Both the position numbers and the translations under genes were made by a program. Source: Bacteroidota bacterium (lineage in GTDB: Bacteria > Bacteroidota > Bacteroidia > B-17B0 > Aurantibacillaceae). From it: DNA of 64,000 nt. The stretch spans positions 390,952 to 454,951 of the forward strand of contig JAFDXR010000003.1 in the NCBI GenBank assembly GCA_018267825.1, given 5' to 3'. The first letter of the stretch is position 1. Each line of letters starts with the position of its first letter. Under the pieces are notes generated by a model that ran no database searches, had not been told where the DNA came from, and saw nothing but the letters and a program-made list of their open reading frames with translations. This document shows positions 36,920 through 45,600 of this stretch, piece after piece.

Positions 36920-37293
36920 TTAATAAGTTCCCAATAAAGATCCCGGAATCTCTTCTTATTTGCCGCCAGACCAGTCCCGCAACCGGGCAATGTAGCGTTT
37001 TCGCACTGACCGTTTTTATAATAGAATATTTCTCCGGAAGCATTCAACCATTTGCCATAATTTATACCGTGCCTGCACTTTCCTATCATCACCGGGTGAC
37101 CCAAAGTATCAAAAGAAACACTTAAATTTTTATACCCTGGTTTTATACTATACCGAAGTGCCTCTATCTTTCCGGATGAATACAATGTATACTCCTTAAA
37201 CCGCCCAATCAAATCACTGCTCCCCCACTGCAACTGCGCAAAGGAAACAACAGGCATAAGCAAAAAAAAGAAATATATACTTCGTCTACTCAA
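36916..37293 (-). CDS. Small secreted protein with MORN-like motif
   Basis: A 125-residue exported protein starting at a TTG that overlaps the M1 peptidase stop region by eight bases; the signal peptide MSRRSIYFFFLLMPVVSFAQ supports this start. The mature part has GINYGKWLNASGEIFYYKNGQ, similar to toxin-antitoxin or MORN-like G-x-W-x-x-Y-x-x-G repeats, in one clear copy and weaker ones before (YTLYSSGKIEALRY). Three cysteines lie in the last third. Function unknown. The gene is coupled to the M1 peptidase and convergent with pabB, sharing the stop codons, with no room for a terminator. Confidence 0.75.
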   Translation of the reverse strand: MSRRSIYFFFLLMPVVSFAQLQWGSSDLIGRFKEYTLYSSGKIEALRYSIKPGYKNLSVSFDTLGHPVMIGKCRHGINYGKWLNASGEIFYYKNGQCENATLPGCGTGLAANKKRFRDLYWELIN

Positions 37294-39700
37294 TTACAAT
37301 CTTCTGTGAAGTCACTACCTGGCTGTTTTCTCTCACTGTAAGCGTATATACACCAGCGGCAAGTCCTTTCAATGGTAGTGTATTTTCCTTGGACGGTAAA
37401 GTCTGGCTATACACCAGTTTACCATCGGTGCTCTGAATTTCAGCTGTCATGTTCTTTGGGCTTTGCACGTTTTTCAGTACAATATGTATTTCATCATTAG
37501 CAGGATTCGGAAAAACCTGGATACTTTCTTTGTCTTTTTGTTTTTCATTGATGCCAATCAGTACATCACTTTTACCATTGGCAAATACATACTCTCCGAA
37601 TTTCAATGTATCCAGAGTGAAAAAGCCTGTTTTCGAACTTATTTTATAGCGTGTGTAATTTTTCACTTCATGCCAGTCGTCTGCAGTATTGCGGCGATAT
37701 AACACGATCATACTATCGGCATTGGCAGCCACCAGGCAGGTATCCAAGTTTGGCAGGCCGGATGTTTTTCCGCCATCATAATTCAAACGTAGCTTGCTCA
37801 CAAATCCGGTTGAAAGTATACCATCTATTTTCCAGTAATGCTGTGTATTAAGCCGGTAATTTTTTGTATTCACTTTGACAGGATCGGGTGCAGCAAAATT
37901 GTGCTCCACGCGGATGAATGATGAGTCCAGGCCTTTATCGGAAACCATGAGCAAAACCTTTCCGAAGGTATACGTTACATTGGATACTGTTTTAATGATT
38001 TTGTATTCCGATGAGATCGCATCGCTTATTTTATTATCGACATTGATGCCTGCGTATTTCGGAAGACCATTTGTCTGGATTGTAAAAGACTTCGTAGTGC
38101 CATTCATCACTATCGGCTTCACTTCAGGAGTCCACTGGCTGTTCATGAATGTTATTTCGAGCGGAACGTTAGAATATAATGCAGGAGCTCCGAATAATTT
38201 CTGCTTCACATAGACCACCGAAGTATAAGGCGCCGATGTACCGCTTGTCTTCACTGAATCTATCGAAAAATGCGGCCAGCCACCTGTAAGTACCCAGTTA
38301 TTGAAAAAATCAGTCAGGTTCTGACCTGATGATGTCATGAGCAAATCGCGGAACTCCAGGCTGTTCATATTCTTATATGCTTTCTGTTGCTGTACATAAT
38401 GCAAGCCGGCAAAAAAAGCAGCATCGCCCATGTAGCCTCTCAGCGTATGAGCTACATCCGCTCCTTTTTTATACACATGGTCGCCATAGGTGTATTCATG
38501 CGGCACACCGGAGATGGCACGAAAGCCTTTCTCGGAAAGGTGGGCGTGTTTTACCATATCGTCATGCACAGTGCGCACTTCATCAATATATTTCTGGTGA
38601 TTGTAGGTGAATTCAAGAAAAAGTTTTTCGCTGTAGGAGGCCATACCCTCGTTGAGCCACATATCTTCCTGTGTTTCGCAGGTTACGAGATCGCCCCACC
38701 AGTGATGTGATAACTCGTGAGCCATCAGGTCATGCTCATAAGCCAGATTGCCGATAGCAATTTGCGGATAGGCAATATTCGTAGCATGTTCCATAGCGCC
38801 GTTATTAAAAGGCACAAGGCAATAGCCAACCCGGTTCCACACATACGGACCATAATGGCTTTCGAAACCAAGAATAGCATTACTCAGGTGTACGAAACCG
38901 CTTTTCATAGAGGTGGTATCGCTTGGGCGGGCCGTCAGAATAACCGGAATATTGCCGCTGCTCACATTAATGTTCCAGTTTACCTGCGTGTAATCAGCCA
39001 CGGCCACCGATGCCAGGTAAGAAGGTATTTCCTTGTTCATGACCCAGGAACGGAGCCTGTAATTGCCGACACGAGTATCGCTCATCAGCTGCCCGTTACA
39101 ATAAGCCGGCCTGAGTGTATCTGTGATGATATTGAATTCGTATTTCGACTTCTCCACAAAATTATCGAAGCACGGAAACCATACGCGCCCATAGCAATGG
39201 GGGTCGGCACCGAAACCAACTCCGAGGTTGTAGGCGTAATTTCCGTTGAACGAAAAGCCCCCCCAGCCCGCAGGATCACCTTGCGGATGGCCATGGTAAT
39301 AAACCGTTACTGTATTTGTATCGGTTGTATTGAGTGCTGCCGGGAAGTTAACCCGCAACAAGGTATCGTTATAGGCATAAGCCAGGGCCGAGTTATTCAT
39401 CCGGATACTATCAATGGTCATTTTCAGAAGATCCAGGCGCAGGTAGGTCTGCCCGTTTATTTTCGGGGCAAAACGCACCTGTGTATTTCCTTTAAAGGTT
39501 TGTCCTGCAAAGTCTGTAATATCGAGGTTGATGGTGTATTTCAGAATATCGATGGTATCACTGCGGTGATTGGCCTGAGAATAGTAGAGCGTATAGGTTT
39601 GCGCGGCTTTTTTGGCCGACTGGCATGTATTTACCTGGGCAAAGAAAGCAACTTGCGAGGTTAGGAATACGATAAGCCAGAACTTTTTAAACAGTTTCAT
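37286..39700 (-). CDS. M1 family zinc aminopeptidase with T9SS sorting domain
   Basis: An 804-residue secreted metallopeptidase. Signal peptide 1-21. The M1 N-terminal beta domain is followed by the exopeptidase motif GAMEH at 301-305 (GAMEN in most) and the zinc site HELSHHWWG at 328-336 with Glu351 (WLNEG) as third ligand and Glu329 as base. The Asn-to-His change in GAMEN is a variation to note. A beta domain and a T9SS type A domain (VFPNPANDEIHIVL to the end) complete it. It would cleave N-terminal residues of peptides at the surface or outside the cell. A small secreted-protein gene is coupled downstream. Confidence 0.95.
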   Translation of the reverse strand: MKLFKKFWLIVFLTSQVAFFAQVNTCQSAKKAAQTYTLYYSQANHRSDTIDILKYTINLDITDFAGQTFKGNTQVRFAPKINGQTYLRLDLLKMTIDSIRMNNSALAYAYNDTLLRVNFPAALNTTDTNTVTVYYHGHPQGDPAGWGGFSFNGNYAYNLGVGFGADPHCYGRVWFPCFDNFVEKSKYEFNIITDTLRPAYCNGQLMSDTRVGNYRLRSWVMNKEIPSYLASVAVADYTQVNWNINVSSGNIPVILTARPSDTTSMKSGFVHLSNAILGFESHYGPYVWNRVGYCLVPFNNGAMEHATNIAYPQIAIGNLAYEHDLMAHELSHHWWGDLVTCETQEDMWLNEGMASYSEKLFLEFTYNHQKYIDEVRTVHDDMVKHAHLSEKGFRAISGVPHEYTYGDHVYKKGADVAHTLRGYMGDAAFFAGLHYVQQQKAYKNMNSLEFRDLLMTSSGQNLTDFFNNWVLTGGWPHFSIDSVKTSGTSAPYTSVVYVKQKLFGAPALYSNVPLEITFMNSQWTPEVKPIVMNGTTKSFTIQTNGLPKYAGINVDNKISDAISSEYKIIKTVSNVTYTFGKVLLMVSDKGLDSSFIRVEHNFAAPDPVKVNTKNYRLNTQHYWKIDGILSTGFVSKLRLNYDGGKTSGLPNLDTCLVAANADSMIVLYRRNTADDWHEVKNYTRYKISSKTGFFTLDTLKFGEYVFANGKSDVLIGINEKQKDKESIQVFPNPANDEIHIVLKNVQSPKNMTAEIQSTDGKLVYSQTLPSKENTLPLKGLAAGVYTLTVRENSQVVTSQKIVIE

Positions 39701-39797
39701 TCGACGGTTATTTAAATAAAATTAATGAAAATTTGCGTACTTCGATAGAGTAAATATTAGAATTACAATAGTATTTAATTAAAAAAGGAATCCTAAA

Positions 39798-41357
39798 ATG
39801 AACCTGATAACCAACAAAGACCTGTTTGACCTGGTAAAGTCCCTGTCCAAGTCGGAGAAGCGGTTTCTGAAACTGAATGCTGCGGCTACCAATCAACAGA
39901 AGGTTCTGATCCAGTTCTTTGACGAACTGGAAAAAGAGAAGGAATATAATGAAGAGCTTTTTATAAAACCTCACAAATCCAAACACGGTCTTTTCCAGGC
40001 TCAAAGCCAGCTTTCAGAAAGTCTTTACGACCTGATTCTGCAATGCTTACGTGGGTTTTACGCCGAAAGCAGTGCCTCCTTTACCATTAAGGATGAGATT
40101 ACCGATATTCTGAACCTTTTCGATAAGGCCCAATATAAACAATGCCGGAAGGTGCTCAATAAGTTAAAACAGGAAGCCTATAAATACGAGCGTTTTCACT
40201 TCATCCTGGAGATTATCAGTCTCGAAAAAATGCTCATTGCCGTTGAAAATCAGTTTGGCATTGTGCATACAACGATTGAAAGACTGATCACGGAAGAAAA
40301 AGCACTGATTCAGAAGGCTAAAAACCTGGGAGATTATACCATTCTGTTTTCGAAAATAAACATGATGACCCGGCAGAGCAGCAAAGCCAAAAACAAAACG
40401 GATGTTATTGCCCTCGATGATCTGCTGAATTCACCCCTGCTCAAAGACGAGGGTCTGGCACAATCCAAAAGGGCTCAGGTTATCTACCACGATTGCCGTT
40501 CAGCCCTTTTCGCCAAAAAACAGGAAAACGAGAAACGCCGTAAAGAATGCGAAGCTCTGATCCGGATCATGGATAAACATCCGGAGCTGATGGAAGAGAT
40601 GCCAAAGCGCTACCTTTCGGCGATCAATAACCTCATTGCAATTTCTTATGAAAACAGGCACTTTAAAGCCTGCCATGAATACATCAAACTGCTTCGCGAT
40701 AAAGCCGAACTGAAGGCATTCAACACAACCGATCTGCAGCTGAAAATATTCACATCGACTTACAATGCTGAGCTGATAACCTATACAGACAGTGGCAAAT
40801 ACGAAAATGCCTTACAGGCTATCAACAACATTGAAGAGGGGCTTGCCCGTTTCAAGGGAAAAATAAACAAGGAAGAAGTTTTAATCTTCTATTATAACAT
40901 TGCGCTGCTTCATGCCTATGCCGGTGAATACAGTAAAGCGCTGGATTACATCAACCTGATCCTGAGCCAGGGCGACAAGCTCCTGAGACAGGATTTGCAG
41001 TGTTTTGCGCGCATCATTAACATTGGCTTACATTATGAACTGGGCCGACTGAAACCGCTCCGCTATATTATTTCATCGGTAAAGGAATATTACAAAACGC
41101 AGCCATCACTGTTTAAAACAGAAATGCTGATTCTGAGTTATTTTGAAAAGCTGGCGGCAGAAGGGGTTACAGCCAAACAGGATGAAATTGCTTTTTTCAA
41201 AAGCTTCTATAAAGATCTGAAAGAAGTAATGAAAGATAAGCACGAACAAAGTGTGAAACTCTATTTTGACATTGAAACATACACGGAAAGCAAGCTAACC
41301 GGTAAGTCTATCAATACCCTGTTGAACGAAAAATATGAAAAGGCCTGGGTAAACTAA
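39798..41357 (+). CDS. Uncharacterised helical repeat protein, paralogue 1 of tandem pair
   Basis: A 519-residue cytoplasmic protein with no signal peptide or membrane segment. It is almost entirely helical, rich in Lys, Glu and Leu, with TPR-like helix pairs, most clearly in the last third (YYNIALLHAYAGEYSKALDYINLIL, 364-388). An N-terminal block reads DLVKSLSKSEKRFLKLN. The next gene, 21 bases downstream, encodes a paralogue with the same motifs (FILEIISLEKMLI against SILEIIELEKLLI; EYSKALDYIN against EYSKALHWIN). I know no function for this family; a regulatory or scaffold role through TPR contacts is a guess. The M1 peptidase gene is divergent. Confidence 0.85.
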   Translation: MNLITNKDLFDLVKSLSKSEKRFLKLNAAATNQQKVLIQFFDELEKEKEYNEELFIKPHKSKHGLFQAQSQLSESLYDLILQCLRGFYAESSASFTIKDEITDILNLFDKAQYKQCRKVLNKLKQEAYKYERFHFILEIISLEKMLIAVENQFGIVHTTIERLITEEKALIQKAKNLGDYTILFSKINMMTRQSSKAKNKTDVIALDDLLNSPLLKDEGLAQSKRAQVIYHDCRSALFAKKQENEKRRKECEALIRIMDKHPELMEEMPKRYLSAINNLIAISYENRHFKACHEYIKLLRDKAELKAFNTTDLQLKIFTSTYNAELITYTDSGKYENALQAINNIEEGLARFKGKINKEEVLIFYYNIALLHAYAGEYSKALDYINLILSQGDKLLRQDLQCFARIINIGLHYELGRLKPLRYIISSVKEYYKTQPSLFKTEMLILSYFEKLAAEGVTAKQDEIAFFKSFYKDLKEVMKDKHEQSVKLYFDIETYTESKLTGKSINTLLNEKYEKAWVN

Positions 41358-41378
41358 TAACGCCAAAGTATTGACACC

Positions 41379-42920
41379 ATGAAACCATCCAATCAACTAT
41401 ACGATCTTATTGTTTCCCTGACTCCAGAGGAAGAGAAAAACTTCAATACGCTTTCATCGCTGCAACAGGGTGATAAAAACTATCTGAAGCTCTTCAATTA
41501 CATTAAGCAGATGGATGCCTATGATGAGGACCTGGTGAAGGAGCATTTCAAAAAGGAAACATTTATAAAGCACCTGGCATCTGAAAAAAATCAGTTGCTG
41601 CATCACATCCTGCGCAGTTTACGCCTGCAGCGTCAGGAAACCATTGCCAGCGCCAATATCGACGAACGCATCAAAAACATCCGGATCCTTTTCAGTAAGT
41701 CGCTGTACAAACAATCGCGCAAACAACTCAGTATTGTAAAAAAAATGGCTTATGATCATGAGTTGTTTTATTCAATCCTTGAAATTATTGAGCTGGAAAA
41801 GCTACTCATTGATATGGAAGCACATTTTGGCGAGATCAATTATAAAACCATTGATGAGCTGATTGATGAGGAGAACAGCATTTTCAACAAGATCGAAAAT
41901 TACGCGGCGTATGAGGTGCTGATGGCTAAGCTTACCGGTATTTCGGCCAAGCTGATGATCGCCCGTAATAAAGAGGATATTGACGATGTGACGCGGGTGA
42001 TGAACGAAACCAAAAAAGTAACCGGGGGCAAAACACTTTCTGCCAAAGCCAGGATTCTTTCGCTTTACACAATAGGGTTATCAAGCCGGCTGCAGAATGA
42101 TATTGAGAACATGTATGAGGCCTTTACCGAAATGGTGGTGGAACTGGAAAACAAGCCGGAGCTCATATCAGAAGTACCGAAGTATTATATTGCAGCGCAT
42201 GGTTTTATTATCCGCTATTTTGCCATCAAAAAACAATATAACGACGGTTTCAAAATGATCGACAAACTGAAATCGCTTAGTCTGAATGAGATGTTCAAGG
42301 CCACCGATTTGCAGATCTCGATCTTCACGCACTCCTACATTACCGAAATGCTGCTCTATGCTTACATCGGTCAGCACGATAAAGCCAAGAACATTATCCC
42401 GATTGTTATTAAAGGACTCGATAAACATGAATCGAAAATAAACAATGAGGATCTTGTGAGGATCTACCATACGATTACGATGGTGTACTTTGGTGTGGAT
42501 GAATACAGTAAAGCCCTGCACTGGATCAACCGGATCATCAACACCAATTATGATGAGCTGAGACAGGATACAATCCGCATCTCCAAACTCATGAACCTCA
42601 TTATCCACTTTGAACTCGGTAACGAAGATTTACTGCCTTACATTTTCAAGTCGACGGTTCGTTTCATTTCAAACCAGGAAAAACAATACAAGTTTGAATC
42701 GGTATTCCTCGATTATTTCAAGAAAATTGCACTTTCCAAACGCGACAGTAAACAGAAGGAAACCTATATCAAATTTAAAGATGAATTGCAGAAGGTATTT
42801 TCCGATAAGTACGAAAAAAATGCGCTCGAATTCTTCAACTTCTATGCCTGGCTCGATTCTAAAATACACAACATCACCTTTGCAGATGCGATTAAGATCC
42901 GGAAGCAAAACATGTATTGA
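41379..42920 (+). CDS. Uncharacterised helical repeat protein, paralogue 2 of tandem pair
   Basis: A 513-residue soluble helical protein in tandem with its paralogue. The order of motifs is the same: LYDLIVSLTPEEEKNFNTL at the start, RKQLSIVKKMAYDHELFYS, LEIIELEKLLIDMEAHFGEI, ATDLQISIFTHSY and EYSKALHWIN. Similarity covers the full length but is clearly below that of a recent duplicate, so the duplication is old and both copies are kept, which suggests separate roles or a heterodimer. There is no DNA-binding or enzyme motif. It ends one base before the stop of the convergent CAP/OmpA-like gene. Confidence 0.85.
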   Translation: MKPSNQLYDLIVSLTPEEEKNFNTLSSLQQGDKNYLKLFNYIKQMDAYDEDLVKEHFKKETFIKHLASEKNQLLHHILRSLRLQRQETIASANIDERIKNIRILFSKSLYKQSRKQLSIVKKMAYDHELFYSILEIIELEKLLIDMEAHFGEINYKTIDELIDEENSIFNKIENYAAYEVLMAKLTGISAKLMIARNKEDIDDVTRVMNETKKVTGGKTLSAKARILSLYTIGLSSRLQNDIENMYEAFTEMVVELENKPELISEVPKYYIAAHGFIIRYFAIKKQYNDGFKMIDKLKSLSLNEMFKATDLQISIFTHSYITEMLLYAYIGQHDKAKNIIPIVIKGLDKHESKINNEDLVRIYHTITMVYFGVDEYSKALHWINRIINTNYDELRQDTIRISKLMNLIIHFELGNEDLLPYIFKSTVRFISNQEKQYKFESVFLDYFKKIALSKRDSKQKETYIKFKDELQKVFSDKYEKNALEFFNFYAWLDSKIHNITFADAIKIRKQNMY

Positions 42921-42921
42921 T

Positions 42922-45600
42922 CTATTTCTTTTTTAGCTGCTGCTCGCGATACCAGGTGGCATAATTCGGGTAACCGGTACAGGTCTGGCACCATTGTGTA
43001 CGGATGGTCTCATTGTCGAGCACCTGAAAACTGATGTTGCAGGGGCCGGTAAAGAGATGGCAATATTCATCCTGCGACAGAATTCCCGGTGCTTTTTTCA
43101 TGAGTTTATAAAACCTACCGTTTTTCTTATACATATCCTGCAGGTATGCCATTTTCAGGTATAGTATAAAAACTTCGTGATTTGGTTTAGGGGCCAGTGC
43201 AAAAGGAGCCAGGATCCTGTAGGCGTATTCATCCTTATAATAGTAAATAAAATAGCGCGCCATTTTATAAGCTACCGAATCGTTGTAATGCCTGGTTTTA
43301 TAAACATAAAACAGGTTATTCATGGCTTTGGCCTGGAATGCCGCGTCTGGTTTCGTTTTATAAAACCAGTCGGCGGCCTTGAAGTAAAAATTCATTTTTA
43401 ACTGATCGAGGGTGTCTTTTGGAATAGCCTTACCACCCAGGCGACCAAGCAATCCGAATACTTTCTCGGGAGTAATTTTCTCATCGTGATCGTAATAATG
43501 CAAACTGTCCCATTGATTGATCAGGATACTTAAAAAATTATAGCGTTGCACCTGGGTGGCCTGCTTCGACATGGCATCTTCTTTAAAAGAATGATAGAGT
43601 TTGGTAATGTCCCGGTTAGCAGTGCTATCAAACAGATGATTAAAAATAACTTCGTTGCGGTGAATTCTCGCATAGGGTTTCGAATCCGGAAATTTCACCG
43701 TGTAAAGATCAGTTGCTGCTACTTTTTTGGCCACAACACTTTTGTAGAGATAGGTTTGAATATTGTATAATTTCTGCAGGTCTTTGGCTGTTATTTTCTT
43801 TTTGTCGGCCTCACCGCTGAATTGCCGGTACTGAAGCAGTGCATTGTGAATCCGCGCAGAATCAGTACTGCGGAGCATGAGCCACAGTTTCACTTCGGCC
43901 TTGCGTTCCTGGCTGAAAATATCTTCCAGATCTTTGCTGATTTCATGATTCTCCAGTTCTTTTTTCACCCGGGCATGATCCATGTTTTTGAGGTAGGCAT
44001 ATTTCGTTTCTCCCACCCTGGCATAAAAATGCTCCCAGTCTTCGCGGGTGTCTATATCGTGTATCAGCGTATCTACACGCATGGAATCAAGTACTTTGCG
44101 TATAGACATGGTCCGTTTCAGTGTCAGGGCCTTATTCACTTCCTCACTGCCTTCTACAGAAGCACTTGCATTTATGTGCAGTTTTACGATGTTATAATTC
44201 TCCAGGCGAATGGTGTCGAGCAGTGGCTTTATATCGGCATAGTTATAACTTGCTTTGCCCTGCTTGAAATTGACGGTAAAATCATAGCGGATGGTATCTT
44301 CCGGGAAACGGTACTCAAACTCACTGAGTTCGGGCAAGAGTGGCGTAGGCTTAATGTTCTGAAAATGTTCACCGCAATAATCGGTGTAGTGAACGACGCT
44401 ACAGACACGCTTTTTACGAAGGAAAAGAATATTGACCTCATAAAAATCCTTTTCATCTGCCGGGAGCTTACCAATGATCTCGTCCATCGGGCAGCCCGGA
44501 AAACGTTTCGGAATCAGAGCAAATGCATCGGGGTATTGCCGGAAGCGGAATCCAAGAATGATGTTGCGGATTGTTCCCCATTTATTGAGTTTCCAGATAA
44601 AGCGCACTTTACGATAAGTGCGACGGAGCCTCCATTTATAGACGGGTTTCTCTACAGTACCATTGGCTATACACTGCCCGTTGCGCCGGCTTGGCTTGAG
44701 GAAAAAATTCTTATTGGTGCATTCATAATCCCCATAGTGCACAATCTCAACGGCAAGTCCGTCGCGGCGCCTTTTGGTAAACTGTTTAAAGAAAGCGCCA
44801 TTAGTTATTACGCCATGAATATTGTTGAGGGAGTCGACGTAAAATCCGGCACCTACACCGGCAAGAGCATCGCATTGCCGGCAACGCCGGTATTTTTTCC
44901 GGGGCTTTAATCCCCAGCGATGGCGGCCCTTATGCATGGTATGTGCTACCTGTTTCAGTTCTGTGAGGTCATACTCTACCGTGTTGGGATCTTCGAACGG
45001 AAAGAGGCTCAGATTTTCTTCAAAAACAAATTTACTCTTTACCTCGGCGATCTTTTGGGTGACATAAATCCTTCGCGTCGCCTTATCATAAGCAATACTC
45101 ACGCCGGTAATCTGGCACTCTTTCTTTGTTATATTCTTGAGTTGCGCACGTGACTTCGTCCATCCTTTCACAATTTTAGCGGCCAGTTCACCATAGCTGT
45201 AATACACATTCAGATCAGGCGTTTTTATATAGAATTTCTTATAGGGCGTACATACAGCTACATTTTCGCCAACAAAATAATTTACGGCGCCAAATGTCTC
45301 TGCCCGTTTCTGCGGCGTTTTATATTTTGCACCGTTTTCAAAATGGCTGAGGACATGCGTTTTCGCCATCTGCCGCGAATGATATGAAGCGGCCATATAC
45401 AGCACACTGTCATTCACAAACACATGCATCCCTTTACGTTCGCGGATGCTGTCGATTTTAAATTTGATAAGGTGTTCGAGGTATTGGGTATTGATATTGT
45501 CGGGATCTACTTCCTCTTCGGGTGATTGAGCAGAACCACAAAGCGGGCCAACGATAAATAACAGCAGGTACACCAGTGTTTTTATCGGGGCTTTTATCAT
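42922..45600 (-). CDS. Exported CAP (SCP)-domain and OmpA-like fusion protein
   Basis: An 892-residue protein with signal peptide 1-25 (ends GSAQ). Residues 38-175 look like a CAP/SCP domain: MAASYHSRQMA, LSHFENG, GENVAV and GWTKSRAQLKNI, although the second CAP histidine is Gln. A basic region with a CRQC pair near 238 follows, then an OmpA/Pal-like segment (about 443-510: DFTVNFKQGKASYNYADIKPLL, HINASASVEG). A long helical region (550-840) and a Cys-bearing tail (QWCQTCTG near 871) complete it. The fusion suggests peptidoglycan or envelope binding combined with CAP-type ligand binding. hldD lies 9 bases upstream on the same strand. Confidence 0.85.
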   Translation of the reverse strand: MIKAPIKTLVYLLLFIVGPLCGSAQSPEEEVDPDNINTQYLEHLIKFKIDSIRERKGMHVFVNDSVLYMAASYHSRQMAKTHVLSHFENGAKYKTPQKRAETFGAVNYFVGENVAVCTPYKKFYIKTPDLNVYYSYGELAAKIVKGWTKSRAQLKNITKKECQITGVSIAYDKATRRIYVTQKIAEVKSKFVFEENLSLFPFEDPNTVEYDLTELKQVAHTMHKGRHRWGLKPRKKYRRCRQCDALAGVGAGFYVDSLNNIHGVITNGAFFKQFTKRRRDGLAVEIVHYGDYECTNKNFFLKPSRRNGQCIANGTVEKPVYKWRLRRTYRKVRFIWKLNKWGTIRNIILGFRFRQYPDAFALIPKRFPGCPMDEIIGKLPADEKDFYEVNILFLRKKRVCSVVHYTDYCGEHFQNIKPTPLLPELSEFEYRFPEDTIRYDFTVNFKQGKASYNYADIKPLLDTIRLENYNIVKLHINASASVEGSEEVNKALTLKRTMSIRKVLDSMRVDTLIHDIDTREDWEHFYARVGETKYAYLKNMDHARVKKELENHEISKDLEDIFSQERKAEVKLWLMLRSTDSARIHNALLQYRQFSGEADKKKITAKDLQKLYNIQTYLYKSVVAKKVAATDLYTVKFPDSKPYARIHRNEVIFNHLFDSTANRDITKLYHSFKEDAMSKQATQVQRYNFLSILINQWDSLHYYDHDEKITPEKVFGLLGRLGGKAIPKDTLDQLKMNFYFKAADWFYKTKPDAAFQAKAMNNLFYVYKTRHYNDSVAYKMARYFIYYYKDEYAYRILAPFALAPKPNHEVFILYLKMAYLQDMYKKNGRFYKLMKKAPGILSQDEYCHLFTGPCNISFQVLDNETIRTQWCQTCTGYPNYATWYREQQLKKK

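Follow-up and report, generated by a model that had tools for sequence, protein, structure and literature searches.

The 64,000-nucleotide stretch of Bacteroidota bacterium DNA analyzed here (assembly GCA_018267825.1, contig JAFDXR010000003.1, positions 390,952 to 454,951; hereafter the window) contains two adjacent genes, designated A and B, which encode related proteins of 519 and 513 amino acids and face away from a gene for a secreted M1-family aminopeptidase. We propose that A and B probably make up a two-part gene switch for this neighboring peptidase. The locus is organized as follows:

37286–39700, minus strand: M1-family aminopeptidase with a type IX secretion system (T9SS) sorting tail, divergent from A; the probable target (Pfam and adjacency)
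39701–39797, no strand: divergent promoter region M1/A, 97 bp, between the two opposite-strand genes
39798–41357, plus strand: gene A, RusR-like protein, 519 aa (open reading frame, ORF; AlphaFold; NF058569 match with E 1.3e-38)
41379–42920, plus strand: gene B, paralogue of A, 513 aa (ORF; tree; NF058569 match with E 3.5e-46)

Given the gap of 21 bp between the two genes, B is probably transcribed together with A. In BLASTP, 153 of 495 aligned positions (31%) are identical between the two proteins over nearly their full length (E 1e-63); coordinates, lengths and alignment agree with an earlier sequence-only reading, which had described two proteins of about 515 residues standing 21 bases apart, homologous throughout and well diverged. 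A Pfam scan of A and B gave nothing over the cut-off, and a sub-threshold TPR_1 match at residues 365–385 of A lies within its EYSKAL region. Against PDB sequences no match was found for A up to E 1, and B had a single irrelevant one (E 0.11). A defense-system identity was rejected, as PADLOC returned 0 families for both proteins. In the M1 protein, Pfam recognizes Peptidase_M1 (5e-27), Peptidase_M1_N (2e-8) and Por_Secre_tail (2.7e-12).

Relatives and divergent neighbors

Both A and B match the NCBIfam model NF058569 ("BT2802 family ribose utilization protein") over their full length. Since these matches lie far under the curated cut-off of 550 bits, which neither A (133.3) nor B (158.3) reaches, we regard the two proteins as distant relatives of BT2802. 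The pair, taken for uncharacterized in the sequence-only reading, does have homologues in a described family, at scores well short of membership. BT2802 is, we assume, RusR, the ribose regulator of Bacteroides thetaiotaomicron, for which Glowacki 2020 is reportedly the original paper. A and B belong to a large, little-studied Bacteroidota group, whose best-known member has been connected with ribose regulation. RusR has been described as a regulator of ribose scavenging with the gene set BT2803-2809 in an article whose available text does not name BT2802 (PMC12596196), while the available part of another merely cites the RusR paper (PMC11697453). The literature that mentions BT2802 was, in its accessible portions, off topic or confined to a listing of base-editing efficiency, and a literature search returned no paper joining type IX secretion, a tetratricopeptide protein and a divergently transcribed transcriptional regulator.

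Of 295 genomes sampled across the class, 132 hold homologues of the NF058569 model (E 1e-20) and 1 holds a member above the cut-off; among control genomes, 0 of 14 have a homologue. Matches to A occur in 26 of 41 genomes (the own genome, family and class relatives), with 1 to at least 36 copies per genome among those listed, the highest numbers being at least 36 in G029 (36 of 102 candidates scored) and at least 29 in G006 (36 of 53 scored). The own genome encodes a third, unlinked homologue (G000:C17:17726-19255), 25% identical to A.

An A-clade profile brought in 80 loci, which together with the window make 81; in at least 45 of these, gene A is divergent from an adjoining M1 gene belonging to one and the same BLAST cluster, including 20 in the clade of the window (the window clade) and 25 outside it, whose A-like proteins are about 30–38% identical to A. 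This count is a lower bound, because ORF calling hid gene A in L132, L140, L147 and L175. Of 17 genomes without an adjacent M1 gene, one carries M1 elsewhere, and in the other 16 a search at E 1e-60 found none. Two named isolates, Cryomorpha ignava (L119) and Crocinitomix catalasitica (L150), carry the A-like gene without M1 beside it. Counting the window, 19 of the 20 window-clade loci hold A and B together; in the exception, L107, the contig stops after A, which leaves the pair together in 19 of 19 uncut loci. On the other side of the pair, a gene for an 892-aa protein (42922–45600, minus strand; CAP/OmpA-like according to the sequence-only reading) is convergent with B across a 1-bp gap, and its counterpart is not a repeated neighbor of the pair in the fetched loci. 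Ribose-utilization genes do not adjoin the pair, its left neighbor being the M1 aminopeptidase and the right one the 892-aa gene, which had no family scan.

Divergence from the upstream gene is a tendency of the family, and the partner varies by branch. In 39 loci, hand-picked at one per genome among the higher-ranking hits in the class, with several from the same genus or with already-seen M1-adjacent genes, such divergence holds for 31 of 39 family genes, compared with 143 of 373 of the remaining genes there (Fisher p 8e-7). In a first set (the window and 61 loci), the figures are 62 of 84 vs. 232 of 636, with tandem B genes scored as not divergent. In G029, all 29 family genes with an upstream neighbor within the fetched stretches are divergent from it (29/29), vs. 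43 of 113 other genes. Their partners fall mostly (21 of 29) into one loose BLAST cluster, 14 of the 29 have in common a C-terminal YKN.LCPG stretch, and in the three that were scanned DUF7948, SBBP and SprB repeats were recognized. With its at least 36 RusR-like copies, G029 (L058-L077) resembles a set of regulator and surface-protein cassettes.

In the 39-locus sample, 15 of the 30 divergent partners outside the rus locus were scanned with Pfam: 7 carry Por_Secre_tail, 2 are without any Pfam family, and the others include pirin, DeoC aldolase, Peptidase_S74, beta-eliminating lyase, glutamyl-tRNA reductase and a Na/H exchanger. In the genome with the above-cut-off member, this gene is divergent, at 59 bp by ORF limits, from genes for a PfkB kinase, an ADP-ribosylglycohydrolase, a nucleoside hydrolase and a ureide-type permease. 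The next-highest scorers under the RusR cut-off (L199-L201; G115, G177, G206) are divergent from pirin (by Pfam in L199, a look-alike protein in L200) or from a DeoC-type aldolase (L201). In the own genome, the third paralogue (L004:9715-12410, C17) faces away from a gene for a FabH-type ketoacyl synthase III. Of its relatives in this FabH branch (L240-L257), several are arranged likewise, and others run in the same direction as FabH or diverge from different genes.

Operator-like sites upstream of gene A

The 97-bp region holds blocks conserved across the window clade, and a conserved site of the TTAGGAATCCAA type lies between A and M1, often in two copies 26–29 bp apart. In the window we distinguish:

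39757–39769, plus strand: operator-like site 1, TTAGAATTACAAT (12.3 bits, position weight matrix (PWM) from outside the window clade)
39785–39796, minus strand: operator-like site 2, AAGGAATCCTAA, inverted (8.5–9.1 bits)
39661–39672, plus strand: possible third site, TTAGGAATACGA (score 10.2), within the first M1 codons

De novo motif discovery in upstream regions from outside the window clade (61 loci, 55 usable regions, 50 after removal of near-copies) returned tTAGgAtTcCAA with a log-likelihood ratio (LLR) of 187.6, the controls reaching 48–56 in four draws from a set not yet cleared of the M1 sides of these intergenic regions and 35–44 in eight dinucleotide shuffles. The window clade alone yields TAGGAATACAAT, which is the same site. 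When divided, the M1-adjacent (24) and non-adjacent (26) regions each give the same motif as well, with LLR 90.9 and 106.2, respectively, against 34–45 in five control sets of 28 regions. The site is in this way recovered in three disjoint sets of relatives.

Thresholds and spacing counts are based on a cleaned control set without M1 sides; in control regions (n = 654) the best scores have their 95th percentile at 9.3 and the 99th at 11.7. With the outside PWM, 17 of 20 window-clade regions exceed the 95th percentile (Mann-Whitney p 3e-13). The count falls to 15 of 20 for the intergenic part only, because some of the best matches lie inside the 5' end of M1. The place of site 1 is occupied in 15 of 20 window-clade loci, that of site 2 in 13 and both in 9; the third-site place, or one nearby, is occupied in 16, where the conservation could instead reflect coding constraint of M1. 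Outside the clade, the PWM marks 21 of 24 M1-adjacent and 23 of 26 non-adjacent regions, both being its training set, and in the genomes lacking an M1 match all 16 loci exceed the threshold, 14 of them belonging to the training set and 2 being near-copies. Among site pairs, a spacing of 26–29 bp accounts for 11 of 50 outside the window clade and 10 of 36 within it, compared with 2 of 22 among controls.

When a two-site pattern was fitted to these sites and run against the own genome (4.8 Mb), its one match was this promoter. Among relatives, the pattern has 2 matches in G013 (one palindromic place, the A promoter) and 0 in five other pair-bearing genomes, for which it is therefore too strict. 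A single-site scan of the own genome with one mismatch gave 48 matches vs. 33 for the reversed control, so that most are due to chance. The motif is specific to the gene A branch: elsewhere it exceeds the threshold in 1 of 16 regions of the FabH branch, 0 of 21 of the RusR branch and 2 of 29 of the G029 copies. RusR-type genes possess an upstream motif of their own, ATAAACCcAAA (LLR 72.9 vs. 26–40 in shuffles). Upstream of two such genes (L265, L267), inverted repeats around ATAAACCCAAA and GTGGATAAATCC can be seen by eye and are candidate rus operators. A "motif" of the FabH branch (LLR 58.1, shuffles 30–38) reads as the FabH coding start and was not counted.

The site accompanies gene A, which points to autoregulation. 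Site 2 ends one base ahead of the A start codon, a position suited to autorepression. Site 1 is placed toward M1, and between the two there is a TTAnnTTTA-like block, which we take to resemble the Bacteroidota -7 element; site 1 would then stand upstream of the M1 promoter, and an activator position for it is a matter of speculation.

Fold and divergence of A and B

The AlphaFold model of A (95 sequences; predicted local distance difference test score, pLDDT, 87.2; predicted template modeling score 0.78) comprises 28 helices, which, by reading of the model, form an N-terminal helical domain of residues ~1–95 and a superhelix of tetratricopeptide repeats (TPR) of residues ~96–519. When the TPR part (from residue ~132) was compared with the PDB by VIA, the nine best rows were Rap/NprR proteins (Z 18.6–20.2; 264–314 residues aligned, root-mean-square deviation 3.5–5.4, 9–14% identity), followed by Rpn6 (18.0–18.1), LGN (17.8), MalT domain III (16.1) and AimR (~16). 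Rpn6 and LGN, at Z ~18, are within about one Z unit and level with the last Rap/NprR row, and Foldseek alone ranks NprR first with a best E of 3e-3. The model and these matches bear out the TPR-like helices noticed in the sequence-only reading. As TPR folds are common, we read the likeness as "works like a TPR sensor" and not as membership.

In the tree, A and B each form one clade (support 100/100) with the same three subgroups inside both, as would be expected of the ancient, retained tandem paralogues that had been suggested for them; of 15 single-copy genes from outside, 14 fall in another clade and L047 stands apart. The two proteins have lost different parts of a common N-terminal domain, block by block and in a complementary manner. 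Among residues 1–95, at positions kept in at least 80% of 56 outside proteins, 6 are kept by A only (K18, S19, K21, R22, F23 and Y77), 18 by B only (M3, K4 and P5, the rest within 28–74), 10 by both and 5 by neither, and 21 are mixed. The A-only and B-only positions form 4 runs along the chain, a number equally low in 29 of 20000 shuffles; this test takes the outside state as ancestral and its rows are related, which makes the shuffle figure a guide only. Residues 96–519 show no such clustering (18 runs; 15414 of 20000 shuffles). Because of this complementary loss, together with the intact pair in all uncut loci, we favor an A/B complex. The heteromer that the sequence-only reading had raised as a general possibility thereby gains a specific argument, the complex itself being a conclusion drawn from these patterns.

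Alternatively, A and B may be independent regulators which respond to different ligands and form no complex, the complementary loss being ordinary divergence after duplication. Their low mutual identity would fit this, as would the stronger constraint on B (mean identity within the clade 70%, vs. 59% for A) and the order in which the three subgroups join the outgroup, which differs between the A and B clades and counts against the regulator pair as we picture it. Yet the loss is block-wise and confined to the N-terminal domain, and no uncut locus has parted the two genes, so that we hold this explanation to be unlikely, but one to be kept in mind.

The N-terminal domain is where the proposed DNA binding meets difficulties. 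The sequence-only reading saw no DNA-binding motif, and profile and fold searches of A and B, so far as they reach, agree. A model of the N-terminal 112 residues (pLDDT 79.6) had no significant Foldseek match. In VIA its Z was at most 7.5 (viral VP30), the MarR family scored ~3, and no helix-turn-helix (HTH) or winged-helix family had a convincing score among the matches listed. Strong positive charge is usual for DNA binders; the N-terminal net charge is 0 in both A and B of the window, with means of +0.9 and +1.1 for window-clade A and B and +4.8 outside. The zero charge speaks against simple DNA binding by one subunit, and the fold of the domain, if the domain does bind DNA, would have to be new or poorly modeled. 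All three observations (no recognizable DNA-binding fold, the neutral domain and the presence of Rap among the best fold matches, as Rap proteins act through protein binding) would suit a scheme in which the conserved sites are promoter elements or serve a different regulator, and A/B act downstream, e.g., by binding a response regulator or sigma factor. However, the sites are specific to one branch and rare upstream of other genes, unlike a general promoter element, and a third-party regulator would have to track A across many lineages, even those where no M1 was found. We therefore judge this scheme improbable.

Predicted function and comparison with known systems

The reading that we consider fairly probable is that A and B form a heteromeric RusR-type transcription regulator of their own operon and, most likely, of M1. 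As two subunits of one regulator, they would bind DNA at TTAGGAATCCAA-type sites through the N-terminal helical domain of about 95 residues, while the C-terminal TPR superhelix would bind a small ligand or peptide that sets the state of the regulator. The complex would act at the divergent A/M1 promoter, thus on its own operon and presumably also on M1. It may have arisen by tandem duplication of a regulator of which single-copy relatives persist in Flavobacteriales, with each paralogue retaining another block of the common N-terminal surface, which would probably make an A/B complex of them today. Since the fold is Rap/NprR-like and the neighbor a peptidase, a peptide is by analogy an attractive candidate ligand.

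The sequence-only reading had viewed the pair as uncharacterized candidate binders of peptides or proteins; its TPR helices stand, and it missed the divergent M1 gene, the operator-like sites and the tendency of the family to face one divergent gene. Because of these three, we prefer control of transcription to a generic peptide-binding scaffold; as a full answer such a scaffold was rejected, since it leaves the divergent tendency and the sites unexplained.

Several further observations weigh against the regulator that we favor. The role of M1 as target rests on adjacency, because the motif tracks A and not M1: the unlinked M1 (one genome of 17) is without the motif. So are the deepest A-B pairs (L044, L045 and L046), the single gene L047 and, at the 9.3 threshold, 5 of 20 window-clade intergenic regions. 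Taken alone, site 2 of the window scores weakly, under the 95th percentile of the controls. G006 and G036 show a small excess of divergent family genes, with 7 of 11 (other genes 35 of 97) and 5 of 11 (other genes 23 of 83), respectively. The LLR and p values overstate significance, because loci of related genomes and their upstream regions are not independent. As some of the site counts fall in M1 coding sequence and the trees agree in part, our confidence in the regulator is slightly lowered.

That A and B are cytoplasmic adaptors or chaperones, holding T9SS cargo (M1, SprB-type proteins) on the TPR surface before export, seems very unlikely: TPR folds are common as chaperone scaffolds, Por_Secre_tail occurs in 7 of the 15 scanned partners outside the rus locus and SprB repeats in all three scanned G029 partners, but in other branches the divergent partner is a cytoplasmic or a membrane protein (PfkB kinase, pirin, DeoC aldolase, glutamyl-tRNA reductase, Na/H exchanger, FabH), a cargo chaperone is usually transcribed together with its cargo and not divergently, and the branch-specific upstream sites would be left unexplained.

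This reading makes a family found in 132 of 295 class genomes testable, with a predicted role, a predicted target (the divergent gene), a predicted site (the TTAGGAATCCAA pair) and a predicted partner (A with B). If true, it ties the regulation of a T9SS-exported enzyme and of SprB-type surface proteins to a class named so far for ribose use alone. The block-wise complementary loss offers a clean case of a homomeric regulator possibly turning into a heteromer. A much bolder and rather doubtful extension is that RusR-like proteins are widespread Bacteroidota TPR switches, the Gram-negative equivalent of RRNPP regulators, each with a novel kind of DNA-binding domain and a single divergent gene; the lineage of the window would then have an obligate A/B heteromer, maybe sensing peptides made by the very M1 under its control, and elsewhere dozens of regulator and surface-protein cassettes would possibly choose which surface protein is made.

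With the RRNPP regulators of Firmicutes (Rap, NprR, AimR), A shares the C-terminal TPR superhelix (VIA Z ~20 to Rap/NprR). The pair differs from them in its Bacteroidota origin, in the low identity of A in the Rap/NprR rows, with other TPR proteins close behind, and in that no known HTH was found, residues 1–112 being without a clear fold match among the matches listed. RRNPP criteria include an adjacent gene for a small secreted propeptide (PMC10075063). No such gene was identified at the locus, where the gaps between A and B (21 bp) and between B and the gene at 42922 (1 bp) are too small to hold one; this negative does not extend to very short peptides in the 97-bp gap. MalT, taken as a second point of reference, resembles A in the TPR-type sensor fold of its domain III (Z 16.1), whereas A and B have neither an ATPase nor a LuxR-type HTH among their Pfam matches. 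MalT is a sugar-responsive activator, domain III being its TPR sensor. From BT_2802/RusR, the closest of the described families by homology, A and B are set apart by the tandem arrangement, by a neighbor that is a T9SS-exported M1 peptidase instead of ribose genes, by a site of the TTAGGAATCCAA type instead of ATAAACCcAAA and by scores of 133 and 158 bits vs. the cut-off of 550. They resemble it in full-length homology over ~510 aa, in divergence from a neighboring operon (97 bp between A and M1, the predicted target; 59 bp in the above-cut-off example) and in the conserved sites found upstream of both.

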